From Acidobacteriaceae bacterium (GTDB lineage Bacteria; Acidobacteriota; Terriglobia; Terriglobales; Acidobacteriaceae), in assembly GCA_025934135.1 (NCBI GenBank), contig JAICYR010000015.1, positions 1 to 33,503 on the forward strand: DNA of 33,503 nucleotides, in the 5' to 3' direction. The notes under the pieces were generated by a model that saw only the letters and a list, made by a program, of their open reading frames with translations, ran no database searches and was not told where the DNA came from. Both the position numbers and the translations under genes were made by a program. Of this stretch, positions 1 to 24,282 are shown in pieces (the stretch's first letter is position 1; each line of letters begins with the position of its first letter).

Positions 1-448
1 ATGCAAGCTCACAGACGCTTTCGACAAACTCCTCCGCCACAATTATCTGTTTAACATTTGCCGTTTGAATGCAATGTAGCAGCGTCGCACCGGATATATT
101 TGTATTAAGCAGGGCCGTCACTCCGCCCACACTGCTTATCCCCATCCATGCCGCATAGTACTCGGGGCAATTCCGCATCAAAAGGCCAACCACATCGCCT
201 TTTTGAATGCCCGCGCCCAGCGCCCATCTTGCATATTGGTTTTTGCGCGACGCCAATCCGTCATAGGTCAGGCACTGACCGTCGGACAACAATGCCGGCG
301 CGGACCCTTGTCGTGCCGCCATCTCATCGGCGATCATGGGCATAATTCTGTCGCGGTTCCGCGCGATCGATGCCGTCAGCTCCAGCGCCCGCATCCATGA
401 ATGCGCTGTGGAGCTTCTTGTTTCGGCAATGGCTGTGGTTCCGCTCAC
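1..448 (-). CDS. AMP-dependent acyl-CoA synthetase, N-terminal part (cut by window edge)
   Basis: This open frame runs off the left edge; only the first 149 codons are visible. The proposed start is a GTG at 448, which overlaps the TGA stop of the upstream dehydrogenase (GTGA), so translation is probably coupled. An in-frame ATG about 18 codons further in is possible. The visible part reads like the N-terminal subdomain of the FATP/long-chain acyl-CoA synthetase branch of the ANL superfamily: a stretch like LTYDGLASRKNQYARWAL, then a turn like GIQKGDVVGLLMRNCPEYY, then the GGVTALLNTN segment. The ATP-binding P-loop and catalytic lysine would lie outside the window, so activity cannot be judged. 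It is the last visible gene of the EPS/acyl operon and would be that operon's second acyl-activating enzyme. The family call is fairly safe; the substrate is unknown. Confidence 0.8.
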   Translation of the reverse strand, partial: MSGTTAIAETRSSTAHSWMRALELTASIARNRDRIMPMIADEMAARQGSAPALLSDGQCLTYDGLASRKNQYARWALGAGIQKGDVVGLLMRNCPEYYAAWMGISSVGGVTALLNTNISGATLLHCIQTANVKQIIVAEEFVESVCELA

Positions 449-1179
449 GCTGTATTTCCCGCGTCGACAGTAAGCACTGTTCCCGTAATGTTTTTCGCCC
501 CCGGCCCCATTAAAAACTCAATTGCGGTGGCAATGTCCCCTACTTCGGGCAGGCGCCGAAGAGCGCTGCGACGGGTGATCCGTTGCAGGTTTTCTCCCTT
601 CAAGCCCACCGTCATATCGGTTTCCACAAATCCCGGAGCCACAGCATTTACGTTGATCCCCATACACCCAACCTCGCGCGCCAGGGCACGCGTAAAGCCG
701 ATCACCGCCGACTTCGTTGCACCATAAGCTACAAGCCCGCTGTAGCCCGTGACCGCTGTGATCGACGAAATGTTCACGACCCTGCCGCCTCCGTCCGCCA
801 TCATCGCTCGCGTAACATATTTGGTCAGCACAATTGGAGACAGTGTATTGGTCTGTATAAGTTGCTCTATATGAGTCACCGGCATCATCGCCAGTGGTCC
901 GTCAAAACTTATCCCCGCATTATTGACAAGGCCATAAATTGGACCGAATTCCTTACGCAGTCCCCTCACTAGGCCTTGTATCCCACTGATCTCAGTAAGA
1001 TCAAACTGGACAAACTGGAACGCCCCGGGATGCGCGGCCTCCGACTCGTGCATTGCCTCTGCCAGCTTGCTATTGGAATTGCGCGCAATGGCAATCACCC
1101 GGTATCCCGCGCAAACAAGCCGTAGCGCCGTGCCCAGGCCGAGACCGCGACTGCCGCCCGTCACAATTACGTTAAGCAT
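445..1179 (-). CDS. Short-chain dehydrogenase/reductase, FabG-like
   Basis: A 244-residue classical SDR, normal length for FabG-type 3-oxoacyl-ACP reductases. It has the TGGSRGLG nucleotide-binding turn (residues 7-14), NNAG at 86-89, and the catalytic set N111, S139, Y152 and K156. All key residues are present, so it should be an active NAD(P)-dependent oxidoreductase. The C-terminus (GTVLTVDAGNTA) is also FabG-like. Its start overlaps the end of the upstream ligase by 8 bases and its stop overlaps the start of the next synthetase by 4 bases, so it is translationally coupled on both sides. With an ACP and two acyl-activating enzymes in the same operon, reduction of a 3-oxoacyl or similar carbonyl on an acyl thioester is the likely role. 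That substrate is inferred, and a sugar or polyol substrate cannot be excluded. Confidence 0.88.
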   Translation of the reverse strand: MLNVIVTGGSRGLGLGTALRLVCAGYRVIAIARNSNSKLAEAMHESEAAHPGAFQFVQFDLTEISGIQGLVRGLRKEFGPIYGLVNNAGISFDGPLAMMPVTHIEQLIQTNTLSPIVLTKYVTRAMMADGGGRVVNISSITAVTGYSGLVAYGATKSAVIGFTRALAREVGCMGINVNAVAPGFVETDMTVGLKGENLQRITRRSALRRLPEVGDIATAIEFLMGPGAKNITGTVLTVDAGNTA

Positions 1180-2584
1180 TGCGGCGCAATACTTTGCCTG
1201 ACTCGGCCACCGTCAGCGCTGGAATGAAGTTGATCGCGGCGGGGACTTTATAAGAAGAAAGTGACTTTCGGCAGAGCAGCAGGATATCGTCCTGAATCGA
1301 TCTCGCATTGCACTGTGTCGGCTGTGGATCACGCTGTAGCACCACGTCTGCTATTACTAGGCTTCCTGTTACCGGGTTCTTCTTGGTCCGTACAAGCGAA
1401 GTTCGCACCGCTGGATGCTGGTTGATAACGGCCTCCACCTCTTCCGGATGCACTTTGAGGCCGCCTACATTGATCGTCCCATCTCGTCTTCCCATAAAGT
1501 AGTAGCGGCCATCTCGCTGCTCAAGCATGTCGCCCGTATCCACAAACCCGTCCGCGCTCCTCAGGGCCGGCGCGCCTTCGCCTAGATACCGGCTCGCGTT
1601 TCGGCTCGAGCGGATCCGTAATGAGCCGCATTCCACTTTCATCTCTACCTCGTCGGTGTTTTCCATTGCGCTCGCTGGAAATCCCGCGCGGCCGTCCTTC
1701 ACCTCAAATGCCACGCCTGCTTCAGTAGACGCGAACGCGTGGACAATCTGCGCATTCGGGTAGATAACATGCAGGGCATTCAGAATTGGCTGGTCTGCTA
1801 TCTCACCTGATAACCGAACGTATTCAGGTGCTATTGTTTGCGCCGCCCCGCTCATTAATGCTTTCCGCCATTGCGAGGGTGTTCCGGATATATAAGTAAT
1901 GCCATGCTTCGCGGCTCGCGTCAGAAACTCCGCCGTTGGCCCCCGGGAAGATGACAGCACGAGCGATGCTCCCGTCAACACGCAGCGGAGCAGTATCTGC
2001 AGGCCCCCATATCTCCGGATGTCGTAAAAGGTGCTCCATACCACCTTTTTCCCGGCATCTTTCACCGGCCCAATCGCTCCAGCCAGGCTTGCCAGTGAAT
2101 GTGCGACCAGCTTGGGAACTCCGGTTGTGCCCGATGTAAGCAGCACCCATTCCGTCCGGTAATACGCATCGCCGTCTTCGCGTCCGAGCGCGACCGCCTT
2201 GCTGCATGGGCAAAACAGAATTGACCGCGTGTGGCCAAAGTGTTGTATTGGCCTGTCAGAAACAATCGCATCTATCCCGGCCGAGTCCATAACAAAGGGT
2301 AGGTGTTCAAGCGAAAAGTCGGGCGGGCAGATGACTAGCCGGCTCGCCAGTCCATCAAGCTCAATTAGGGCCGAGGCGGCCGTGAGCTGGCTCGACGTCG
2401 CCACCAGCACCGACCGTCCTCGAAGCTCAATACCGCGACCGTAAAGGGCCGAGCCTGAAATTAGATCACTCTGTGTGACCGCAGCTTCATCGTCCGCGAT
2501 CACGCAATCGTGAAACTCACCTCTGCACCGCAGAGCGGCCCTTAGCGACGTCCATTCACTGTGGTTGCTTTGCTGCATTCTCAT
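1172..2584 (-). CDS. AMP-dependent acyl ligase (exosortase-A-associated ligase-like)
   Basis: An ANL-superfamily adenylate-forming enzyme of 470 residues from the ATG at 2584. A longer frame reaches back to 2626, but GGTGGA sits just upstream of 2584, and the longer start would increase the overlap with the ACP gene to 71 bases. Visible motifs are the P-loop LLTSGTTGVPK (about residues 148-158), the A7-like DTGDM, the hinge and A8 region GRRDGTINVGGLKVHPEE, and a C-terminal SGKVLR whose lysine (about 464) is the adenylation lysine. It is shorter than typical 500-550-residue acyl-CoA synthetases because the N-terminal subdomain is compact. It overlaps the upstream ACP gene by 29 bases, which suggests that it loads that ACP with an acyl group. 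This layout resembles the AMP ligase of exosortase-A EPS loci. Substrate unknown. Confidence 0.85.
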   Translation of the reverse strand: MRMQQSNHSEWTSLRAALRCRGEFHDCVIADDEAAVTQSDLISGSALYGRGIELRGRSVLVATSSQLTAASALIELDGLASRLVICPPDFSLEHLPFVMDSAGIDAIVSDRPIQHFGHTRSILFCPCSKAVALGREDGDAYYRTEWVLLTSGTTGVPKLVAHSLASLAGAIGPVKDAGKKVVWSTFYDIRRYGGLQILLRCVLTGASLVLSSSRGPTAEFLTRAAKHGITYISGTPSQWRKALMSGAAQTIAPEYVRLSGEIADQPILNALHVIYPNAQIVHAFASTEAGVAFEVKDGRAGFPASAMENTDEVEMKVECGSLRIRSSRNASRYLGEGAPALRSADGFVDTGDMLEQRDGRYYFMGRRDGTINVGGLKVHPEEVEAVINQHPAVRTSLVRTKKNPVTGSLVIADVVLQRDPQPTQCNARSIQDDILLLCRKSLSSYKVPAAINFIPALTVAESGKVLRRNA

Positions 2585-2810
2585 ACAGTTCCACCAGCTC
2601 GCCGAACGTAACCGGAAACAGCGCATCCTCGGAGGCGCTGAAAGGATCTAGCCCAAGCACGTTTTCAAGCCGGGCGACGATAATTGCAAAGGAGAGCGAA
2701 TCAAGCCCGGACTGGATAAGTTCCAGGTCGTCCGTCAGGCGCGCCAACTCCAGGCCTTGTTCCGTCGCCACCTGCGTGAACTGCGTTACAACTTCCGATC
2801 TTATTTCCAT
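2556..2810 (-). CDS. Acyl carrier protein (PP-binding)
   Basis: An 84-residue four-helix carrier protein. The phosphopantetheine attachment motif is GLDSLS with Ser38 as the expected attachment site, followed by the typical helix IIVARLENVLG. A good ribosome binding site (GAGGGG, about 6 bases upstream) supports the ATG at 2810. It is a dedicated carrier, not housekeeping AcpP, as the residues around the serine (IQSGLDSLSFAIIVARLE) and the gene context differ from fab loci. It is followed by a ligase that overlaps it by 29 bases and preceded after 76 bases by an alpha/beta hydrolase. The likely role is to hold an activated acyl unit for modification or transfer in the EPS-linked pathway. The ACP family is certain; the role is inferred. 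Confidence 0.9.
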   Translation of the reverse strand: MEIRSEVVTQFTQVATEQGLELARLTDDLELIQSGLDSLSFAIIVARLENVLGLDPFSASEDALFPVTFGELVELYENAAKQPQ

Positions 2811-2886
2811 ATCAACCCCTCAAGGCAGATAAAAACAAACGCTATCTCTCGTCCTGACATAAAGCAGCTTGTACCTGTAAGTGAAA

Positions 2887-3846
2887 TCACGCCGTCTTAC
2901 TTTCTCTTGCAGACGGCATTAGGATGACATTTTCTCCCATCGCGTTTGGAAGCGCGGTTGAGATATTGGTGAAGATGGTTGAGTCCAGCCACTTTTCTAT
3001 AAATTGCGGAATGGCTGCGCGGCCCTGTCGATTTGAGAACGAGTGGTTCGAGCCGTCCACTACCTCAACTGACACGCTGGCCTGCTGACCCGCGCTGGCA
3101 AGAATGTGCTGTAAGTAGTCGAACTCGCCCGTGCGGGCCTTCAATCCCGCCGACCTCCTGCTGGGCGCCCGCAGTATCAGCACCGGCACCCCGCCGCGCA
3201 CAACTTCTTTCCAGCAGCGTAGAAGTTTTACGTTCGCGTTCGCCGGAAGCCCCTCTTGCCTTAGCTTGCGCCGCACCTGCTTCAGCAAATCAAATGCGCC
3301 GCTCAATAGTCCGCCCAAGTGGCTTCGCCGGGACCAAAGGTTAAGTTGCTGCCGAAACTTCGGAGTATCCAGCCTCTGCATGTTGAAGTATGGATCCATC
3401 AACACCATGCCCAGGCACTGCCCGCTCGTAGCGGCTGCATAGATGGCGGAAACAGCTCCCGCGCAATGCCCCGCGACAACCATCCCGGGTAGCTTGTATC
3501 GCCGCACCAACTCCTCAATCAAGGTCGATACCTTAGCTCCATATCCTCCAGAGTTAATGTATCCGAGCCAGTCCGCGGGCGGAGCATCGTCTGAGTCTCC
3601 AAACCCCGGCAAATCAACGCGGAATGACGGGTGTCCCGCTGCGGCAAGCGCGCTGGCCCAGCCCACGGCGGCATCTCCGTTGCCTGCCCTCGTGGCATAA
3701 AGGCCGTTCAGAAATAGCACACCGGCCTGTGCGCCACGCGCTGCGCGCGAATGTGGTCGTATCCCTCTGGGCCTATGGTAAGTTACCCACATGCCATCCA
3801 GCGACACTAACTCGCGGCCTTCAATTGTTTGTTCCATCGACTCCAT
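2887..3846 (-). CDS. Alpha/beta hydrolase with cysteine nucleophile elbow (exosortase hydrolase 1-like)
   Basis: A 319-residue alpha/beta-hydrolase-fold protein. Visible parts are the early strand VLFLNGLY (43-50), the strand and turn FRVDLPGFGDSD, the nucleophile elbow GHCAG with Cys128 where most relatives have serine, and a probable catalytic histidine at H268 (SNHSF). The acid may be D151 (LMDPYF) or a later residue. Cysteine at this position recalls EPS-linked hydrolases of the exosortase-A hydrolase 1 type, and suggests thioester or acyl-transfer chemistry more than simple hydrolysis. Its start overlaps the upstream hydrolase gene by 26 bases; an alternative ATG is at 3837. No signal peptide is seen, so it is cytoplasmic. 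The fold is clear; the subfamily name is from memory of motifs and is moderate. Confidence 0.78.
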   Translation of the reverse strand: MESMEQTIEGRELVSLDGMWVTYHRPRGIRPHSRAARGAQAGVLFLNGLYATRAGNGDAAVGWASALAAAGHPSFRVDLPGFGDSDDAPPADWLGYINSGGYGAKVSTLIEELVRRYKLPGMVVAGHCAGAVSAIYAAATSGQCLGMVLMDPYFNMQRLDTPKFRQQLNLWSRRSHLGGLLSGAFDLLKQVRRKLRQEGLPANANVKLLRCWKEVVRGGVPVLILRAPSRRSAGLKARTGEFDYLQHILASAGQQASVSVEVVDGSNHSFSNRQGRAAIPQFIEKWLDSTIFTNISTALPNAMGENVILMPSARESKTA

Positions 3847-4651
3847 GGGTATGTAACCGCAAAGCTCCAGCGACCCACTTATAGGTCGATTCGTAAAGTG
3901 CGCTCAGGTCTTGGCTGTCGTCGTATCTTCTGTAAGGCATTGACGGTGACTGGGCACTCGATCCAAATCTGTCAACCTTAACTGGCCGGCCCCGGTCATC
4001 GAGGAATGCGCCTTCATCCCGCAATCCATCCAGTGCCCCAAATGCGAAGGACTCGTGCCACAATTTGCTCTGCCATTCGTATCCATGCACTTCGATGGAC
4101 GTACCGCCCTCTAGCTCACGGATATATTCCGAAGCTGACTTTCGGTTTTCCGGCGACTCATACAGTTGCTCGATACCCGCCCACCGCCGCAGAATCGCGC
4201 GCATCGCCTGGTTTGCATTCACCGGCGGAGACCATAGCAGCAGCGCCTCGCCTGCCCCGCCGGAAAAACATCTGCCGGCCAGAACAGCTCCTAGCTCAAC
4301 GCCGTGCAATAAAAGCGGAAGTTCCGGACGTTGCTGCGCAAACCAATTGGCCAGAGCTTCGGCATCCGCGCGCCATTGTTCAAAGCTCGCCGACTCAAAA
4401 TCACCTGTGCTCTCGCCTGTGCCGCGATGGTCATACCGCAGCACCTCGATTCCGCGCGCAGCCAGGTACCGCGCCCACCGCACCCATGCGTTGTATGCGA
4501 ACTGTCGCTCCGACGCAAAGGGTCCCACCAGCAATACTCGTGCTTCCGGACGGCCCGCCCGGTGCAGCATCGCATACAGATGTGCACCGGGAACCGGAAT
4601 GTATCCGGCGTGCTCTTCCAGAACTACGGCCGATGCAGGGGCGCACCGCAT
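3821..4651 (-). CDS. Alpha/beta hydrolase-like protein lacking the nucleophile (exosortase hydrolase 2-like)
   Basis: A 276-residue protein with an alpha/beta-hydrolase core: VLLVGPFASERQF near the oxyanion strand, then LRYDHRGTGESTGDF, and then the elbow HGVELGA, where Glu119 replaces the serine. The GPF...SER start, the GDF-x-SAS-x-EQW stretch and the LLLHGVELGAVLA elbow match my memory of exosortase-A hydrolase 2 proteins, in which the elbow residue is also not serine. It is therefore probably a non-hydrolytic partner or a pseudo-enzyme. The ATG overlaps the TAA of the oxidase gene upstream (TAATG), and its end overlaps the next hydrolase by 26 bases, so the two hydrolases are probably made together, perhaps as a pair. 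Cytoplasmic by sequence. The function is not known. Confidence 0.75.
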   Translation of the reverse strand: MRCAPASAVVLEEHAGYIPVPGAHLYAMLHRAGRPEARVLLVGPFASERQFAYNAWVRWARYLAARGIEVLRYDHRGTGESTGDFESASFEQWRADAEALANWFAQQRPELPLLLHGVELGAVLAGRCFSGGAGEALLLWSPPVNANQAMRAILRRWAGIEQLYESPENRKSASEYIRELEGGTSIEVHGYEWQSKLWHESFAFGALDGLRDEGAFLDDRGRPVKVDRFGSSAQSPSMPYRRYDDSQDLSALYESTYKWVAGALRLHTHGVDGTNN

Positions 4652-5334
4652 TAGGCTGCGGCCGCCATCGCGTCGGCACGATTGTAGACAATCGTGTCGA
4701 TCAGCGCGCGAAGCAGATCGACGCCTTCAAATAGATCCACCTCCGGGCCAACAGGATGGTTCGCCTTCTCTACCTCAAAGGCTTGAATCAGCCCCGCTGT
4801 GTGGGCTATGTCACATACTCCGTGAACGTCCGTATATTCCATCTCCGTTGATCCCAGCCCCGCCGCCAGCTCCGCCAGATATGGCATGAACTTCTGGATA
4901 AACCCTTCAAAGTAGGCCATCGTCAGCAACGACGGAACTCCCTGTAGCCTCCCCAGGAACCGGCGCATATTCGTAAGCGCTTCATCCACTGCCAGCGAGT
5001 CCGCCGCATCGGGATACGCGTGCGCCGCGACTGCAAACTTCCTCATCATCACGGGGTGCGCATCCGTAACTTCTTCGTGCAGGTTTTCCAGAAGAATCGG
5101 CTTCGCCTCTTCTGACTTGGTTGCCATCACCGTGGCCGTCATCCAATAGATAAAATTACCCTCCAATACAGAGGTATACCGCGCAATGATGTCCCGCCGT
5201 TCCGCATTGCTCAAAAGCCTCAAGTCAGGCAACGAGGCCATCTGCTCATCAATCATGCGGTCCAGAGTTTCCTTAATGCCGGCATCCTGTGCGGCGTTCT
5301 GTGGTTCCCGTGGTACAGTCAACGTCGTAGTCAT
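4651..5334 (-). CDS. Haem-oxygenase-like di-iron oxidase (HDO) candidate
   Basis: A 227-residue all-helical protein of the TenA/PqqC/CADD-like fold. Candidate metal ligands follow the HDO pattern: E87 and H93 in NLHEEVTDAHP, E143 in YFEGF, and the closing helix H171-x3-D175-x2-H178 (DVHGVCDIAH). The H-x3-D-x2-H spacing is what I recall for CADD-type enzymes. HDO enzymes use iron and O2 for reactions such as fatty-acid decarboxylation to alkenes (UndA), C-C cleavage and N-oxygenation. A strong ribosome binding site (AGGAAGG) precedes the ATG, and the gene is followed by a TAATG overlap with the hydrolase. Placed among an ACP, two acyl-activating enzymes and an SDR, it may oxidise an acyl or amino-acyl chain. 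The substrate is unknown; a non-metal TenA-like relative is the main alternative. Confidence 0.7.
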   Translation of the reverse strand: MTTTLTVPREPQNAAQDAGIKETLDRMIDEQMASLPDLRLLSNAERRDIIARYTSVLEGNFIYWMTATVMATKSEEAKPILLENLHEEVTDAHPVMMRKFAVAAHAYPDAADSLAVDEALTNMRRFLGRLQGVPSLLTMAYFEGFIQKFMPYLAELAAGLGSTEMEYTDVHGVCDIAHTAGLIQAFEVEKANHPVGPEVDLFEGVDLLRALIDTIVYNRADAMAAAA

Positions 5335-5397
5335 AAGTTACCTTCCTGCAAGTTTTTTGGATTTTGGGTTGCCCGCATGGGATACTCCGGCTTCGCC

Positions 5398-5426
5398 CAC
5401 ACCATCATGCGCGGCGACATGGTGTG
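5398..5426. repeat. Perfect 8-bp inverted repeat in the wzz-HDO gap
   Basis: CACACCAT (5398-5405) and ATGGTGTG (5419-5426) form a perfect stem around a 13-base loop. It lies in the only long gap (179 bases, 5335-5513) inside the operon, about 65 bases before the HDO start. No T-run follows on the minus strand, so it does not look like an intrinsic terminator. An operator, a processing or stabilising hairpin, or an attenuator is possible. Confidence 0.45.
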
Positions 5427-5513
5427 TCGAGTTCTGCCCGCATTTTCAAGATATGCTTGCCGGTCGCAGCTGACGTCTGCAGCCTGGCAGAGAATCGAAC
5501 TACTCGTAATCGC

Positions 5514-7010
5514 TCACGCGCTCTTGTTCTCCACATCATCAATGGGATCGATCGCCTCAAATTTCGGCAGCTCATTCGGCCCGTAAATCGACGCCAGCAC
5601 CGGCACGTTCAGATACGCGGCCACTTCGTCCGTGCTGCGGAACTTTGGATCGAAAAAGTCCGTCAGCAGCGCCGCCGCTAGGCTTAGGAAGAGCGCGGTG
5701 CCGATTCCGGCCAGCATGATCTTGCTGCGCAGGTGGACATGCGTCGCCGGCACAAATGCCTTCTGGACTACAGCCACATTCAATATCTTGTTCGCATCCA
5801 GCTCATCCGAGATGCGCGCTTCTTCCCTCTTTTGCGAATACAGCAGATAGTTGGTCTCCGCGGTTTTTGCCCTTCGAGTCAGGTCCTGCTCTTGGATCGA
5901 TTGTGCGTTCAAACTGTGAAGGTTCTGGCCGTCGGCCACCAGCAGGCTCGCATCCGCTGTGCGCCTGCCAAGCAGCCCCTGCAACTGGGCCTGCGCCTTC
6001 GCCATTTCGGTCCGGATCCATTCATACGCGGTGTTCTGATTGGTCGCCTCTTCATGCAGCGGCTGACTCTCTTCCCGCGCTATCGCCGCCTTGGTGTCTG
6101 CAATCCTCTTGTCCAAATCAACCACCGGCCTATATGTCGGCTGGTACTTGGCTGTCAGTTGGTCTCGCTGAAGTTGTAAGGTCAGCAGCGTCCCCTTCAG
6201 ATTTTGCAGTAATTGCGGATTGTCGGAGGCCCTCTTCTCTGTCACCAGACGTTGCGGAGTGCTCTTCTCCAGCTCTTTCAAACTGGCGATCCGCTTTTCT
6301 GTCTCGGCAATCTCAGCTTCTGTCTCATTCGATGAGGCCTTCAAATCTGCGCGCTTGCTCACCATCTGGTCTCGCGTAAGTGACGGAGCGACAAACTTGG
6401 CATCCGCAATCTGCTGTTCTATCGCATCCAACTGCTTCTTATAGATGTCCGCCTGCTGCTCAAAGAATTTGTAATCCCGCCCTGCCTGTCTTATTTGTTG
6501 ATGCTTCTCAAGATATAGAGCGATCAATGAATTCAGAACATTCGCGCTCACCTGCGGATCGTCCGAGTTATAACTCAGTCCAATAACATTGCTCTTCTTG
6601 ATCGGTTCAATCTTTAATTTGCTGTTCAGCCGCTCAACTGCCCGGTCCACTTCAGCATTTGAAGGCTTCGCTCCGGCAAGCCCATTTTCCAGCACCACTT
6701 TGCGCAGAATGTCGTGGGTCCTCAACAACTCCAGTTCGGAGTCAAGATCTGCCTCGCTCACCTCTTCCGAAGGCGCTTGATAATTCACCGTGCGTTCCGG
6801 AGAAATCATCGCGTCCGATCTCGCCCTTTGCACAAGCAGCTTCGCGGACGATTGATATTGGCTGGGCAGCAGAAACGCCAGGAGAAGGGCAGCGCCTATC
6901 GTCGCAAAAAATATGATCGACAGGAGCCCCTTGCGCCGGAATATCACCGACGCCACTTCGCGCAGCGCCACAGGCTGGGGCGCCGACTGCACAATTAGAG
7001 CTGATTGCAT
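5514..7010 (-). CDS. Polysaccharide co-polymerase / chain-length determinant (Wzz/GumC-like)
   Basis: A 498-residue inner-membrane protein. It has a first membrane span at about residues 29-49, a long periplasmic coiled-coil-rich part with many charged heptads (about 150-400, including the GNVR-like segment), and a second span at about 430-450 followed by a 48-residue cytoplasmic tail. The tail has no Walker motifs, so there is no fused BY-kinase. This is the architecture of exosortase-linked or GumC-type PCP proteins, which set chain length and work with the Wza-like exporter encoded just upstream. The start ATG has only a weak ribosome binding site. The order antiterminator, exporter, co-polymerase places it in the EPS export part of the operon. 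Confidence 0.88.
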   Translation of the reverse strand: MQSALIVQSAPQPVALREVASVIFRRKGLLSIIFFATIGAALLLAFLLPSQYQSSAKLLVQRARSDAMISPERTVNYQAPSEEVSEADLDSELELLRTHDILRKVVLENGLAGAKPSNAEVDRAVERLNSKLKIEPIKKSNVIGLSYNSDDPQVSANVLNSLIALYLEKHQQIRQAGRDYKFFEQQADIYKKQLDAIEQQIADAKFVAPSLTRDQMVSKRADLKASSNETEAEIAETEKRIASLKELEKSTPQRLVTEKRASDNPQLLQNLKGTLLTLQLQRDQLTAKYQPTYRPVVDLDKRIADTKAAIAREESQPLHEEATNQNTAYEWIRTEMAKAQAQLQGLLGRRTADASLLVADGQNLHSLNAQSIQEQDLTRRAKTAETNYLLYSQKREEARISDELDANKILNVAVVQKAFVPATHVHLRSKIMLAGIGTALFLSLAAALLTDFFDPKFRSTDEVAAYLNVPVLASIYGPNELPKFEAIDPIDDVENKSA

Positions 7011-7086
7011 TGGAAACTCGGTTCAGCTATCTCAAAGCCGGTCCGGATTGCTTACCTACACTAAGTGGCTATGTTATGAGGCAGCT

Positions 7087-7797
7087 TTAGAATGTCCCGG
7101 GATATACGCTCATGCCCACACCCGGCGTGGGAATCAATTGATGGATCTTCGACCAGGTGTTCTGTGGAACGTACACTAGATCACCAGGATGCAGATATAC
7201 GTCTTCCCGCAGATCGCGATGCTTCAAAAGCTTTTTCACGTCGATCACTTGTCCCTGCGCCAGCATGTTTCCCTCCCGCCGGAACAGCACCACTTGTGAA
7301 TCCTTGCCGCGGTCTGGAGCCAAGCCTCCCGCAATCGCAATCGCTTCCGTCACCGTAATGGGGCCGCGAAGCTCATACTTCCCTGGCTTTGCCACTTGAC
7401 CCATCGCGATAAAGTAGCTCTTTTCCAGGTCCTTCGGAGTCACCGAAACCACGGGCCTATTCAAGATGCTCGAATACTTCTTCTCCACAAGCTCCTGCAC
7501 TTGCGGTAGCGTGAGCCCGCTCACATGCGCGTCGCCCACTTCCTTTAGCGAAACGAACCCATCCGGCTGCACCACAAGCGTCTGGTTGAACTCCGGAGAG
7601 AACTGGAAATTCAGGTCAAAACTGTCTCCTGACCGCAGCGTGTATCTTGGAAACCTCTGATGAAGCGAGGGAGAATTCGTCGACGCCGGCTCCGCCACCG
7701 CCGTCTTCTGCTTCGTTTCCGCTCCGGCCGCTACCGCCATGCACAAAAGCAGCGCCCCGGCCCATGCCATCCAGCTTTTTCGCTTTGTCAGAAACAT
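7087..7797 (-). CDS. Polysaccharide export protein (Wza-like, Poly_export + SLBB)
   Basis: A 236-residue secreted protein. The N-terminus is a signal peptide (KRK followed by a hydrophobic core ending ...VAAGAET). The Cys in that core is preceded by LLL, not a good lipobox, so cleavage by signal peptidase I is more likely than lipidation. Residues about 50-125 form the polysaccharide-export domain (YTLRSGDSFDL, QPDGFVSLKEVGD), and about 130-215 one SLBB domain (SYFIAMGQVAKPGKYEL). It is shorter than Wza (about 380), which has further SLBB repeats and an outer-membrane helix. GGAG overlapping the preceding stop serves as ribosome binding site. It is expected to form the periplasmic or outer-membrane part of the EPS secretion channel. 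Confidence 0.88.
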   Translation of the reverse strand: MFLTKRKSWMAWAGALLLCMAVAAGAETKQKTAVAEPASTNSPSLHQRFPRYTLRSGDSFDLNFQFSPEFNQTLVVQPDGFVSLKEVGDAHVSGLTLPQVQELVEKKYSSILNRPVVSVTPKDLEKSYFIAMGQVAKPGKYELRGPITVTEAIAIAGGLAPDRGKDSQVVLFRREGNMLAQGQVIDVKKLLKHRDLREDVYLHPGDLVYVPQNTWSKIHQLIPTPGVGMSVYPGTF

Positions 7798-7805
7798 CCC
7801 CGCTC

Positions 7806-8414
7806 CTATGCCGTGAGCGCCAGGTCAGACAGGTCCGTCACCGGCCTCACCGGCACGCTCGCAATTTGGAACCCGTCAAGTTCCACCGCGATCGACTGCC
7901 GAATCGTCTCCACCGAAAGTACAAACCGGTTCCCAGACTTGGTCCGCTGAACGATTCCGCGCAATCCCTCCAGCGGGCCTGCCACAATCTGTACCGGATT
8001 CCCGGCGGAAAGATATGGATGCGGCCCCACTTCCTTACCGCTGATCAGAATTTTCCGAAGCGCCTCAATCTCATCATCTGCAATCGGGCTCGGAGTCACC
8101 CCCGATCCCGCATAGTGCAGCACCCCCGGCACCTGGAGAGGCTGGAACCGCTCCCGCGCTCCGGTCCGCACAAACACGTATCCGGGAAACAACGGCAGCG
8201 ACACCCGGCTCGATCGCTTGTTCCAGCGATGCACCGCCTGGTACAGCGGCAGAAAATACGCCAGGCCCCGCTCTTCAAAATGACGTGCCACCGCCTTCTC
8301 ATGGCGCGCCCACGTGTAAACCGCATACCATCGCGGGCGATTCTCAACTACCAGAATTGGACCGACCGATTTGGGCTCAAGCCCCGAACATACCGCTGCG
8401 CCGCTGAGTGCCAT
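7806..8414 (-). CDS. NusG-family transcription antiterminator (UpxY/RfaH-like)
   Basis: A 202-residue NusG paralogue. The NGN domain begins with RPRWYAVYTWARHEKAVA at about residue 27 and includes the LPLFPGYVFVR strand; a KOW-containing C-terminal domain follows (VQIVAGPLEGLRGIVQ, about 140-160). Specialised NusG proteins of the UpxY/LoaP/RfaH type are usually the first gene of long capsule or EPS operons and let RNA polymerase pass terminators inside them. The position here, first of at least ten co-oriented genes with very short gaps, fits exactly. AAAGGTGAG 3 bases before the ATG is a strong ribosome binding site. It is unlikely to be the housekeeping NusG because it is not beside secE or rplK and has a divergent N-terminal extension. 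Confidence 0.9.
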   Translation of the reverse strand: MALSGAAVCSGLEPKSVGPILVVENRPRWYAVYTWARHEKAVARHFEERGLAYFLPLYQAVHRWNKRSSRVSLPLFPGYVFVRTGARERFQPLQVPGVLHYAGSGVTPSPIADDEIEALRKILISGKEVGPHPYLSAGNPVQIVAGPLEGLRGIVQRTKSGNRFVLSVETIRQSIAVELDGFQIASVPVRPVTDLSDLALTA

Positions 8415-9001: not shown

Positions 9002-9727
9002 ATGGAACTCCTTCAGGAAGTTGAACACCCACACAAATCCCGCCTGCTCATCTCCGACCACACCCTGTTGGGCTGCGAACTCATGGCCAGGGGCCTCGAA
9101 TCCGGGATCGGCCAGATCCAACTGGTCGCACGTGCAACAAGTGGAGCGGAAGTTCTCCGCCTCGCCCAGGAGCATAATCCTGACATCGCCCTCGTCAGTG
9201 CCGTGCTTTCCGACGGCCCTCTCGCCGGATTTAAAACCCTGCCCGTCCTCCAAAGCCTCGTCCCGCGCTGCTCTGTGATCGTCCTCCTCGACGAAATGGA
9301 CGTGGACCTCGTCGTAGACGCCTTCCGCGCCCACGCCCGCGGCGTCTTCTTTCGCGCCGAGCCCATCGAGAACCTCATTAGGTGTGTCAACGCCGTTCAC
9401 GAAGGACAGGTCTGGGTCGGCTCCCGCGAACTCAGGCTCGTCCTCGATGCCTTCTCCGAGTCCGCACCCTTCCACGTCCCCACCAGCGCCGGACTCAACC
9501 TCACCCGGCGTGAGCTCGACATCGCCACCCTTGTCGCCGCAGGAAAAAGCAATCGCCAAATCTCACGCAGCCTCAACATCAGTGAGCACACTGTAAAAAA
9601 CAACCTCTTCCGCATCTTCGAAAAAATAGGAGTAGGCAGCCGCGTCGAGCTGGCCGTCTTCATCATGAACGTCCACCAATACGCCCCCTTCCGCGGCCCC
9701 ACTCCGCTGGACAAGCTCGCCGGCTAA
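9002..9727 (+). CDS. NarL/LuxR-family regulator with degenerate receiver domain
   Basis: A 241-residue protein with an N-terminal receiver-like domain (about 13-135) and a C-terminal LuxR-type HTH (LTRREL... at 167 to about 225, with ISEHTVKNNL as recognition helix). In the receiver, D19 of the acidic pocket is present, but the phospho-acceptor aspartate is Ser66 (PDIALVS), the switch Ser/Thr is Leu96, and the conserved lysine is Arg118. It should therefore not be phosphorylated in the normal way and may act constitutively or through another input. GGTGA 4 bases before the ATG is a weak ribosome binding site. The gene is divergent from the EPS operon, so it is a natural candidate regulator of it. 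DNA binding by the HTH looks intact. Confidence 0.85.
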   Translation: MELLQEVEHPHKSRLLISDHTLLGCELMARGLESGIGQIQLVARATSGAEVLRLAQEHNPDIALVSAVLSDGPLAGFKTLPVLQSLVPRCSVIVLLDEMDVDLVVDAFRAHARGVFFRAEPIENLIRCVNAVHEGQVWVGSRELRLVLDAFSESAPFHVPTSAGLNLTRRELDIATLVAAGKSNRQISRSLNISEHTVKNNLFRIFEKIGVGSRVELAVFIMNVHQYAPFRGPTPLDKLAG

Positions 9728-22128: not shown

Positions 22129-22259
22129 CGGACTTCAACATGAAGCGTCATGACGATCTTGACGCCCCCGTCCGTGCTCCATAGATTCTACCAGCGGTCA
22201 ACCGCTTCAGTTCAACCAACTTGAGGGAAAATCGACCGCCCTGTGTAGACTGGGATTTC

Positions 22260-23120
22260 GTGACCAGCCTCATCCTCAACGCCGACGACTTCGGCCTCAC
22301 GCCCGGCGTCAACCGCTCCGTTCTGGAGCTTGGCGCGGGGGGAGCGCTGACCTCCACCACCTTGATGGCTATCTCGCGCTATGCGCCCGAATCACCCGCA
22401 ATGGCGGGCTCTTCCCAGCTCGGCGTAGGCTGCCACGTCGTTCTTGTGGACGGCGAACCCGCGCTCCCGCCCAGCCAAATTCCCGCACTCGCGCCTTCCG
22501 GCGCCTTCCGCCCCAAGCTCGGGGCCTTTGTCCGCGATCTCCTCCTGGGACGCATTCCCGAATCGGAAATCGAGGCCGAAGCTGTCGCCCAGATCCGCCG
22601 CGCCCAGTCCACTGGCATCCGCATCACCCATCTGGATACGCACAAGCACACCCACATGTTTTCTCGTGTACTGCGCCCCCTGCTCAGCGCCGCCCTGCTC
22701 TGCGGAGTTCGCGCCATCCGCAACCCCTTCGAGCCGGACTGGGCGCTCCGGGCGACTCCCCGTGCTCCCGCGCTGCGCCGCGCGCAAGTCCGACTGCTCC
22801 GCACGCAACGGCGCACCTTTATCCGGACCGTTGACCAAACGGGCCTCGCCACAACTGACGGAGCCATCGGAGTCCTCGCCACCGGGACTCTCGACGCCGA
22901 AACCCTCACTTCCCTGCTGAACGCCATGCCTCCGGGAACATGGGAACTCGTTTGCCACCCCGGGCATGTCGATGACGCCCTGAACCAGGCACACACCCGT
23001 CTCCGCGAATCCCGCGCCATCGAACACGCCGCGCTCGTGAAGGTCATCCCCGCCTTCCTGAGCGCGCATCCAAACGTCACCCCCATCCATTTCGGACAAC
23101 TCGCGGAAGGGCCGGCATGA
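22260..23120 (+). CDS. YdjC/HpnK-type carbohydrate deacetylase
   Basis: A 286-residue protein of the YdjC/ChbG/HpnK family, predicted metal-dependent deacetylases of acetylated amino sugars. It starts at a GTG (22260) so that NADDFG falls at residues 7-12 as in relatives; a TTG at 22221 would add 13 residues without support. Metal and catalytic residues are D9/D10, and H124, D126, H128, H130 and H132 in THLDTHKHTHMF. WELVCHPGHVDDAL near the end is HpnK-like. The gene leads into bshA through a minicistron, so the two are probably co-expressed. It could remove an acetyl group from a hopanoid glycoside, or from a GlcNAc conjugate of the bacillithiol route; the sequence cannot decide. Confidence 0.85.
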   Translation: MTSLILNADDFGLTPGVNRSVLELGAGGALTSTTLMAISRYAPESPAMAGSSQLGVGCHVVLVDGEPALPPSQIPALAPSGAFRPKLGAFVRDLLLGRIPESEIEAEAVAQIRRAQSTGIRITHLDTHKHTHMFSRVLRPLLSAALLCGVRAIRNPFEPDWALRATPRAPALRRAQVRLLRTQRRTFIRTVDQTGLATTDGAIGVLATGTLDAETLTSLLNAMPPGTWELVCHPGHVDDALNQAHTRLRESRAIEHAALVKVIPAFLSAHPNVTPIHFGQLAEGPA

Positions 23121-23170
23121 ATCCTCAACCCTCCGCCCCGCGTCCAAACACCACGGCACGAACTTTATGA
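23117..23170 (+). CDS. 17-codon minicistron coupling ydjC-like gene and bshA
   Basis: An ATG at 23117 overlaps the TGA of the deacetylase gene (ATGA), runs for 17 codons (starts MNPQPSAPRPN), and ends in a TGA that overlaps the ATG of bshA (ATGA again). It has no family match I know. It fills the whole gap between the two genes and could carry terminating ribosomes to the bshA start, which lacks its own ribosome binding site. Confidence 0.4.
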   Translation: MNPQPSAPRPNTTARTL

Positions 23171-24282
23171 AGATCGGAATCACATGCTATCCCACCTACG
23201 GCGGCAGCGGAGTCGTCGCCACCGAGCTTGGCATTGAACTCGCCGCCGCAGGGCATGAGGTGCATTTCATCACCTACTCGCAGCCTTTCCGCCTCACCGG
23301 ACGCGAGCACGGCATCTTTTATCACGAGGTTCCGGTCTCCAACTACCCGCTTTTTGAGTACCCTCCCTACGACCTCGCGCTGGCCACGCGCATGTCTGAG
23401 GTCGCGGCCTACTATAAGCTCGACCTGCTGCACGTTCACTACGCCATTCCGCATTCCATCTCCGCCTATCTCGCGCGGCAGATGCTGGCCGACCGTAACC
23501 ACCGCCTGCCCTTTGTCACAACGCTTCACGGGACCGATATCACCCTCGTCGGGCTCGACCACTCCTACTTGCCTATCACCCGCTTCGGAATTGACGAAAG
23601 CGACGGCGTCACCGCCATCTCCAATTACCTGCGCGAACGTACCGTGAGCGAATTCAGCATCAAGCGCGAAATTGAAGTTATTCCCAACTTCGTCAACTGC
23701 GATGTCTACACGCCACTCAGCCCTGAAGCCCGCGCTGCGGCCCGCGCCCAGTTCGCCGAGCCCGGCGAAAGAATCCTGGTGCATCTCTCGAATTTCCGCC
23801 CGGTGAAGCGCGCCGTCGATGTGGTCGAAATCTTCGCCCGAGTCGCGCGCGAAATCCCCTCACGCCTGCTCCTTATTGGCGACGGCCCCGACCGCTCGCA
23901 GGCCGAATGGCTTGCCCGCCGTCTCCGCATTCAGGACCGCATTCATTTCCTCGGCAAGCAGGCCGGCGTCAGCGATCTGCTGCCGCTCGCCGACCTCATG
24001 CTCATGCCCAGCGAACTCGAGTCCTTCGGCCTGGCCGCACTCGAGTCCATGGCCTGCCGCGTTCCCGCCATCGCGACCGCCGTCGGAGGTGTACCTGAAC
24101 TCATCGAAGACGGCGTCAACGGACGCCTCTTCGCTGTGGGCGATGTGGACGGCATGGCCCGCGCCGCCATCGAGCTACTCAGCGATGGAGAAGATTACGA
24201 GGCCATGGCCACCGCCGCCCGCCACACCGCGCAGCAGCGATATTGCGCCTCGCACATGATTACTCAATTTGTGGACTACTAA
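23167..24282 (+). CDS. bshA: N-acetyl-alpha-D-glucosaminyl L-malate synthase
   Basis: A 371-residue GT4 glycosyltransferase with two Rossmann domains. It joins GlcNAc from UDP-GlcNAc to L-malate, the first step of bacillithiol synthesis in the cytoplasm. BshA marks are the start MKIGITCYPTYGGSGVVATELG, the acceptor region VPVSNYPLFEYPPYDLALATRM, HVHYAIPH, TTLHGTDITLVG, and the C-terminal donor region with ELESFGLAALESMA. The length is as expected. No ribosome binding site is seen; translation may depend on the minicistron before it. The last base of its coding region and its TAA overlap the stop of the convergent kinase gene (CTAA). bshB and bshC are not in the window. Confidence 0.93.
   Translation: MKIGITCYPTYGGSGVVATELGIELAAAGHEVHFITYSQPFRLTGREHGIFYHEVPVSNYPLFEYPPYDLALATRMSEVAAYYKLDLLHVHYAIPHSISAYLARQMLADRNHRLPFVTTLHGTDITLVGLDHSYLPITRFGIDESDGVTAISNYLRERTVSEFSIKREIEVIPNFVNCDVYTPLSPEARAAARAQFAEPGERILVHLSNFRPVKRAVDVVEIFARVAREIPSRLLLIGDGPDRSQAEWLARRLRIQDRIHFLGKQAGVSDLLPLADLMLMPSELESFGLAALESMACRVPAIATAVGGVPELIEDGVNGRLFAVGDVDGMARAAIELLSDGEDYEAMATAARHTAQQRYCASHMITQFVDY

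Follow-up and report, generated by a model that had tools for sequence, protein, structure and literature searches.

An eight-gene cassette with a predicted heme-oxygenase-like di-iron oxidase lies near exopolysaccharide genes in some Acidobacteriota and Rokuibacteriota

The 33,503-base window analysed here is the entire contig C200 (JAICYR010000015.1) from the 88% complete, 300-contig draft genome of an Acidobacteriaceae bacterium. The minus strand of its first 8414 bases carries exopolysaccharide (EPS) export genes followed by a gene for a predicted heme-oxygenase-like di-iron oxidase (HDO). The conserved unit to which this oxidase belongs is an eight-gene cassette, and the export genes lie outside its core. 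The eight genes encode the HDO, an acyl carrier protein (ACP), an AMP-forming ligase, a short-chain dehydrogenase/reductase (SDR), a FATP-type acyl-CoA synthetase, a PF00282 decarboxylase, an enzyme resembling O-acetylhomoserine sulfhydrylase (OAHS) and a MetA-like homoserine acyltransferase of the HTS family. The window holds the first five of these, the fifth being cut, placed behind the EPS export genes. The cassette is tentatively proposed, with a probability put a little short of even, to make a homoserine-derived acyl group on the ACP which, after oxidation by the HDO, would serve as a decoration of an EPS.

A scan of GTDB contigs for the HDO gave 50 loci (51 where the window is counted), mostly titled Acidobacteria (or a subgroup thereof) and Candidatus Rokuibacteriota, with one Pirellulales bin and one Formivibrio bin. 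The complete eight-gene set is present in 21 of the 26 loci where 9 kb or more of DNA follows the HDO gene, as counted by tblastn with score thresholds set by the analyst; the relatives' genes come from a simple in-house caller. The order HDO-ACP-AMP ligase-SDR-acyl-CoA synthetase recurs, except that the HDO follows the synthetase in loci L024 and L047 and the synthetase is inverted in L038, L039 and L045. The PF00282 decarboxylase is found downstream of the synthetase, directly or behind OAHS/HTS, in 25 of the 26 loci, and the decarboxylase, OAHS and HTS genes are arranged in at least three orders. Since all eight genes stay together in 21 of 26 loci with the last three variably ordered, they are held together by function. 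The five incomplete loci lack HTS (L014 and L045), the synthetase and decarboxylase (L026), the ACP and SDR (L035) or OAHS and HTS (L038). Some of these absences reflect where the fetched stretch stops: HTS lies further along the contig of L045 and on another contig of the L014 genome.

The ten co-oriented genes with overlaps or short gaps that the initial annotation described are all present in the window at 2-8414 on the minus strand, and are listed here in the direction of transcription:

7806..8414, minus strand: UpxY/RfaH-type NusG antiterminator, heading the run (NF033644, 111 bits, cut-off 100)
7087..7797, minus strand: Wza-type polysaccharide export protein, an EPS neighbour (PF02563, SLBB; TIGR03027, 82/180 bits)
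5514..7010, minus strand: Wzz-type polysaccharide chain-length protein, an EPS neighbour outside the cassette core (PF02706; TIGR03007, 119/279 bits)
4651..5334, minus strand: predicted HDO, 227 aa (PF14518, 36.8 bits, cut-off 28.9)
3821..4651, minus strand: hyd2, alpha/beta hydrolase fold without Ser or Cys at the elbow (TIGR03101, 84 bits, cut-off 203)
2887..3846, minus strand: hyd1, alpha/beta hydrolase with a GHC[AT]G elbow (TIGR03100, 50 bits, cut-off 168)
2556..2810, minus strand: free-standing ACP, 84 aa, with a GLDSL attachment site (PF00550, 23.4 bits, cut-off 20.8)
1172..2626, minus strand: AMP-forming ligase (PF00501/PF13193; start uncertain: 2626, 2584, 2578 or 2503)
445..1179, minus strand: FabG-like SDR reductase, 244 aa (PF00106; TIGR01830, 189/298 bits)
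1..448, minus strand: FATP-type (long-chain-like) acyl-CoA synthetase, first 149 codons (PRK08279, E 2e-35, 122/625 bits for the fragment)

Profile matches bear out the gene families named earlier: UpxY/RfaH-type NusG, Poly_export/SLBB, Wzz and the PF14518 iron-containing redox enzyme, followed by two alpha/beta hydrolases, PP-binding, AMP-binding, adh_short and a second AMP-binding protein. From NusG to the synthetase the intergenic distances are 8, 76, 179, -1, -26, 76, -71, -8 and -4 bases, where the value of -71 hinges on the uncertain start of the AMP ligase. The genes from the HDO onward mostly overlap, and a consensus scan found no promoter-like or terminator-like site in the widest gap, the 179 bases between the Wzz and HDO genes. 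The ACP attachment serine motif is conserved in all 38 called homologues, and the closest PDB entry to a full-length relative of the synthetase is FATP2.

The tenth gene is interrupted at 149 codons, compared with 602 in a full-length relative, since the contig, all of which is in the window, ends inside this gene. The initial annotation therefore saw an incomplete cassette: the group II PLP decarboxylase (PF00282), the OAHS-like enzyme (PF01053) and the MetA-like acyltransferase (PF04204) are not visible in the window. Its suggestion that the HDO takes the place of a PLP decarboxylase is rejected, as the decarboxylase is conserved in the relatives (25 of 26 loci) and the window ends before that position. 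A PLP decarboxylase is thus usually present, apparently in a family other than the exosortase-A type. In the one relative scanned it belongs to PF00282, and TIGR03099, the PLP decarboxylase family of the exosortase-A system, is not among its nine NCBIfam matches at E 0.001. No cassette-type OAHS was found in the window's own genome, where PF01053 has nine matches. The single strong one falls among cystathionine gamma-synthase (CGS)-type rows, and the remaining matches listed score below 40 bits each. The rest of the assembly did not yield the missing remainder of the synthetase either, so the absence of the last cassette genes from this draft is uninformative. Their presence in this bacterium would be an extrapolation from the relatives.

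The HDO has seven residues (E58, E88, H93, E143, H171, D175 and H178) that are invariant in 48 of 48 aligned rows. The alignment omits L001, which is the window, and the short L050, L051 and L052; L002, which duplicates L024, is among its rows. The candidate metal ligands are E88 (or E58), H93, E143, H171, D175 and H178, which at the sequence level gives the 3-His/3-carboxylate pattern of HDOs, including HxxxDxxH. PMC13185094 gives E86, H89, E143, H172, D176 and H181 as the three-histidine/three-carboxylate ligands of MboA, and the review PMC13108848 describes this as the majority ligand set among HDOs. The spacing is E88-x4-H93 here versus E86-x2-H89 in MboA, and either of two glutamates could bind; given the seventh invariant carboxylate, a 3-His/4-carboxylate metal set is possible. 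An AlphaFold2 (AF2) model (pLDDT 91.8) has the heme-oxygenase-like helical bundle, with CADD as the best Foldseek match (TM 0.63-0.70, query-normalised 0.63-0.66, probability 1.00, E 2e-3) and with HrmI and UndA at TM 0.49-0.61. A phmmer search of the PDB with the HDO alone gave nothing useful, and with the HDO profile the best hit was a weak one to PabS (E 0.036). The cassette HDO resembles the superfamily of CADD/PabS, UndA, HrmI, MboA, BesC and SznF in its ligand pattern and CADD-like fold, but differs in that no PDB entry matches it strongly in sequence. The initial annotation had allowed that the gene might prove to be a TenA without ligands, which did not hold. A TenA/thiaminase identity was dropped because every one of the 48 rows has the complete ligand pattern; by fold an HDO and a TenA are not distinguished.

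The last two cassette genes, the OAHS/HTS pair, suggest a group derived from homoserine. A relative's acyltransferase scores 198.8 bits against the HTS family PF04204 (cut-off 27), and the HPEY and Cys motifs are each present in 23 of 24 called genes. HTS matches occur in 34 of 38 cassette genomes, 33 of them above the cut-off. The OAHS of the cassette forms a single clade across phyla (28 rows, 100/99, maximum-likelihood tree) on a long stem, separate from eight other OAHS of the cassette genomes and from four CGS-type rows. This tree holds rows from cassette genomes only, with both L002 and its duplicate L024, and its CGS-type rows are long-branched and may join falsely. The best PDB match of the cassette OAHS is the plain sulfhydrylase 8sf5, and Fub7 chains are among the matches. 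Fub7 is an OAHS-like enzyme of natural-product clusters that catalyses gamma-substitution. The cassette OAHS is like such enzymes in its resemblance to O-acetylhomoserine sulfhydrylases and comes with its own homoserine acyltransferase; it differs in being nearer to the plain sulfhydrylases. A MetX-like gene of at least 360 bits is present in eight of 18 genomes searched, and in five of the eight a second OAHS adjoins it; the model cut-off of 500 bits is reached neither in these genomes nor in any control genome. The HTS/OAHS pair probably serves more than methionine synthesis.

The initial annotation expected the gene set to recur beside EPS genes, and this stood in part. Recurrent EPS-like clusters, chosen as such by the analyst and several by reading, are present in 20 of 51 loci, and some exosortase genes share a contig with HTS; the other 31 loci have none in the fetched DNA. 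Among 80 upstream same-strand genes scanned with Pfam are 11 group 1 glycosyltransferases, five O-antigen ligases, three sugar transferases and two exosortases, tallies biased towards EPS genes because 19 of the original 99 genes were judged distant by eye and dropped. Exosortases (PF09721) are found in 25 of 38 cassette genomes. In five (G301, G303, G308, G318 and G326) the exosortase lies on the HTS contig at 0.1-14 kb from HTS, a count that leaves out G328, whose HTS contig has a weak 42-bit match. Only in G318 and G326 does the contig with the HTS and exosortase also carry the HDO. PrsT is above its cut-off in two extended loci, and one extended locus encodes a FemAB-like protein (88/260 bits) and an exosortase at 105.9 bits (subfamily cut-off 105.55). 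Acyltransferases also recur, namely hexapeptide proteins (clusters c15, c21 and c39) in nine loci and Acyl_transf_3 proteins (c25) in three, each cluster being named from one scanned member. In one Rokuibacteriota genome only, a glycosyltransferase and the HDO are joined in a single 647-codon open frame (L031, 8705-10648, plus strand).

The hydrolases hyd1 and hyd2, which the initial annotation had paired with the HDO and ACP, are not core genes. They are a lineage-specific extra found in a subset of the Acidobacteriota loci, five of 50 plus the window. Other Acidobacteriota stretches (L090-L094) also contain hyd2-hyd1 pairs, of which that of L091 lies beside a TIGR03098-like ligase (489 bits) and those of L092 and L094 lie beside, or one gene from, a gene read as polyketide synthase-like; no HDO of the cassette family was called in these five stretches. 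The elbow of hyd1 is GHC[AT]G in six of six rows, window included, and GxCxG in five of five partners from the other acidobacterial loci, so that Cys is present in 11 of 11. At the same position hyd2 has neither Ser nor Cys (six of six and five of five rows) and is likely a pseudo-enzyme, with hyd1 a candidate acyltransferase or thioesterase. A Cys nucleophile elbow also occurs in polyhydroxyalkanoate (PHA) synthases, which transfer acyl groups. This likeness, together with the polyketide synthase-like neighbour in two genomes, suggests that the two proteins are an acyl-transfer pair acting from a carrier protein rather than by simple hydrolysis.

A pathway can be proposed from the enzyme families, with its product, step order and transfer to EPS all drawn from them. 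HTS would O-acylate homoserine, and the OAHS-like PLP enzyme would put a different nucleophile in place of the acyl group. From the resulting gamma-substituted 2-aminobutyrate the group II decarboxylase would strip the carboxylate. In some genomes a nearby class III aminotransferase and aldehyde dehydrogenase could convert the resulting amine into an acid. An aminotransferase of this class lies within about 8 kb of the cassette HTS or cassette end in nine genomes (at least 67% identity) and in weaker or partial form in three further ones; an aldehyde dehydrogenase is near the cassette in four. The AMP ligase and/or the acyl-CoA synthetase would activate the acid and load it onto the ACP. The HDO may then desaturate, hydroxylate or cleave an amino-acid-derived or ACP-bound intermediate, which the SDR would reduce. 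In the lineage of this bacterium the finished acyl group might be passed to EPS by the Cys-nucleophile hyd1 together with the inactive hyd2, and in other lineages perhaps by the hexapeptide or Acyl_transf_3 proteins. Attachment to EPS is the likeliest among several uses of the product. Four loci, L006 (and L084), L014, L015 and L031, also have a member of a cytochrome P450 cluster within the cassette or next to it; the one scanned belongs to PF00067.

A number of observations weigh against this proposal. The genome of the window (88% complete) has no match to HTS, PF00282 or the exosortase family PF09721; the contig break can account for the missing decarboxylase and HTS, but not for the missing exosortase. 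Of the 38 cassette genomes searched, 13 lack an exosortase match, and in G301, G303 and G308 the exosortase-linked HTS is on a different contig from the HDO. The 31 loci with no recurrent EPS cluster include many short stretches, and the EPS and exosortase counts carry no background rate from random genes. The ACP and SDR are missing from both L035 and L037. The assembly of the cultured Acidipila rosea lacks HTS, and its decarboxylase has no adjacent cassette-type OAHS, although the contig stops there. Six of the 18 genomes searched (own genome not counted) have no MetX match above 150 bits, so HTS/OAHS might also serve methionine synthesis in these. The HDO model has no Foldseek match at E below 0.001, and its matches to TenA and PqqC chains are about as good as those to HrmI and UndA.

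The closest competitor, itself on the doubtful side, is that the product of the cassette is free and secreted, a small molecule acting as a signal, antimetabolite or metal binder, and that the EPS genes are mere neighbours, being common landing sites for accessory genes. Consistent with this, L008, L018, L019, L036 and L040 have nearly 10 kb of upstream DNA and no recurrent EPS cluster, and the HDO is patchily distributed, being present in 2 of the 297 Acidobacteriota genomes (own genome included) and, in the phylum to which the Rokuibacteriota genome G323 belongs, in 11 of 95. Mere proximity fits less well with the exosortase, PrsT, FemAB-like protein, glycosyltransferases and O-antigen ligases that adjoin the cassette in both Acidobacteriota and Rokuibacteriota, or with the glycosyltransferase-HDO fusion, and neither an exporter nor a nonribosomal peptide synthetase (NRPS) was seen among the recurrent clusters that were annotated, which are part of the total. 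A lipid pathway of the membrane or envelope, in which the FATP-type synthetase and ACP join a long-chain acyl group to an amino-acid headgroup, would suit the FATP2-like synthetase, the ACP and the FabG-like SDR; it is quite unlikely, given that the eight core genes include no lipid acyltransferase and that the nearby transferases are the hexapeptide and Acyl_transf_3 proteins next to EPS genes.

The initial annotation placed the genes in the exosortase-A (XrtA/PEP-CTERM) EPS acyl module defined by TIGR03098, TIGR03100 and TIGR03101, with the HDO replacing its PLP decarboxylase. The two systems share an AMP ligase, an EPS context and a hyd2-hyd1 pair with the same Cys/no-nucleophile pattern as the pairs of five other acidobacterial loci; hyd1 and hyd2 are distant relatives of TIGR03100 and TIGR03101, and XrtA-type genes flank some cassettes. 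Membership is nevertheless unlikely. The ligase of the window scores 69 bits against TIGR03098 (curated cut-off 592), compared with the 489 bits of the ligase beside another acidobacterial hyd2-hyd1 pair, and hyd1 (50 of 168 bits) and hyd2 (84 of 203 bits) also fall below their cut-offs; TIGR03101 is above its cut-off in none of the 297 phylum genomes. The hydrolases are optional, the relatives' loci do have a PLP decarboxylase, no exosortase was found in the own genome, and the cassette adds the HDO, SDR, FATP-type synthetase, group II decarboxylase, OAHS and HTS. Chance proximity of ordinary methionine synthesis genes to unrelated ones is very unlikely. HTS and OAHS are textbook methionine enzymes, the closest PDB entry is a plain sulfhydrylase and six genomes lack a MetX match, but the pair accompanies the same six other genes in different phyla and in several orders, its OAHS is a single clade on a long stem, and eight genomes have a MetX-like gene, five with a second OAHS beside it. 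Moreover, the 25 HTS-bearing genomes among the 297 of the phylum sample include none from the own family; 16 of them belong to a single other family and score roughly twice as high. The JamABC-type alkyne cassettes combine a ligase, an ACP and an oxidase that is a membrane desaturase. The adjacency of ligase, ACP and iron oxidase is shared with the present cassette, which has an HDO instead and five more enzymes.

Upstream of the NusG gene there is a minus-strand promoter-like site at 8597-8570, one of two sites in the stretch searched versus 0.3 expected. A frame read as a LuxR-type response regulator (9002-9727) is oriented divergently from the EPS run, of which it may be a regulator. Further along the window, at 22221-24282, a frame read as a YdjC/ChbG-like deacetylase adjoins a BshA-like glycosyltransferase, also named by reading.

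The cassette is rare and patchy. At E 1e-8 the two HDO-bearing Acidobacteriota genomes include the own genome, and the strong AMP ligase matches fall in the same two, a third match being weak (34% identity). In the Rokuibacteriota sample G318, G322, G323, G324 and G331 have two HDO copies each; one copy in G318 and one in G324 are interrupted by a stop codon within the matched stretch. No description of the cassette was found in the titles and abstract openings of the literature searched. In word searches, the review PMC13108848 contains "polysaccharide" nowhere and "carrier protein" in a reference only, and PMC1569441 mentions no ligase, ACP, decarboxylase or hydrolase.

The cassette is experimentally accessible through bearers that appear to be cultured, namely Terracidiphilus gabretensis strain S55, Granulicella sp. 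L46 and Acidipila rosea DSM 103428; the fetched loci of the first two contain neither hyd1 nor hyd2. The fullest form of the proposal, a new di-iron pathway in which homoserine becomes a carrier-bound acyl group that is oxidised by the HDO and moved by the Cys hydrolase pair onto an exosortase-type EPS, is possible but rather doubtful. If it is true, HDO chemistry would act for the cell surface instead of yielding a secreted metabolite, and the HDO would be linked to the biochemistry of EPS and carrier proteins. The "hydrolase 1/2" families of exosortase-A loci, so far unexplained, would gain a function as a Cys acyl-transfer pair, and the eight genes would provide a defined, testable set for surface or secreted chemistry in soil bacteria.

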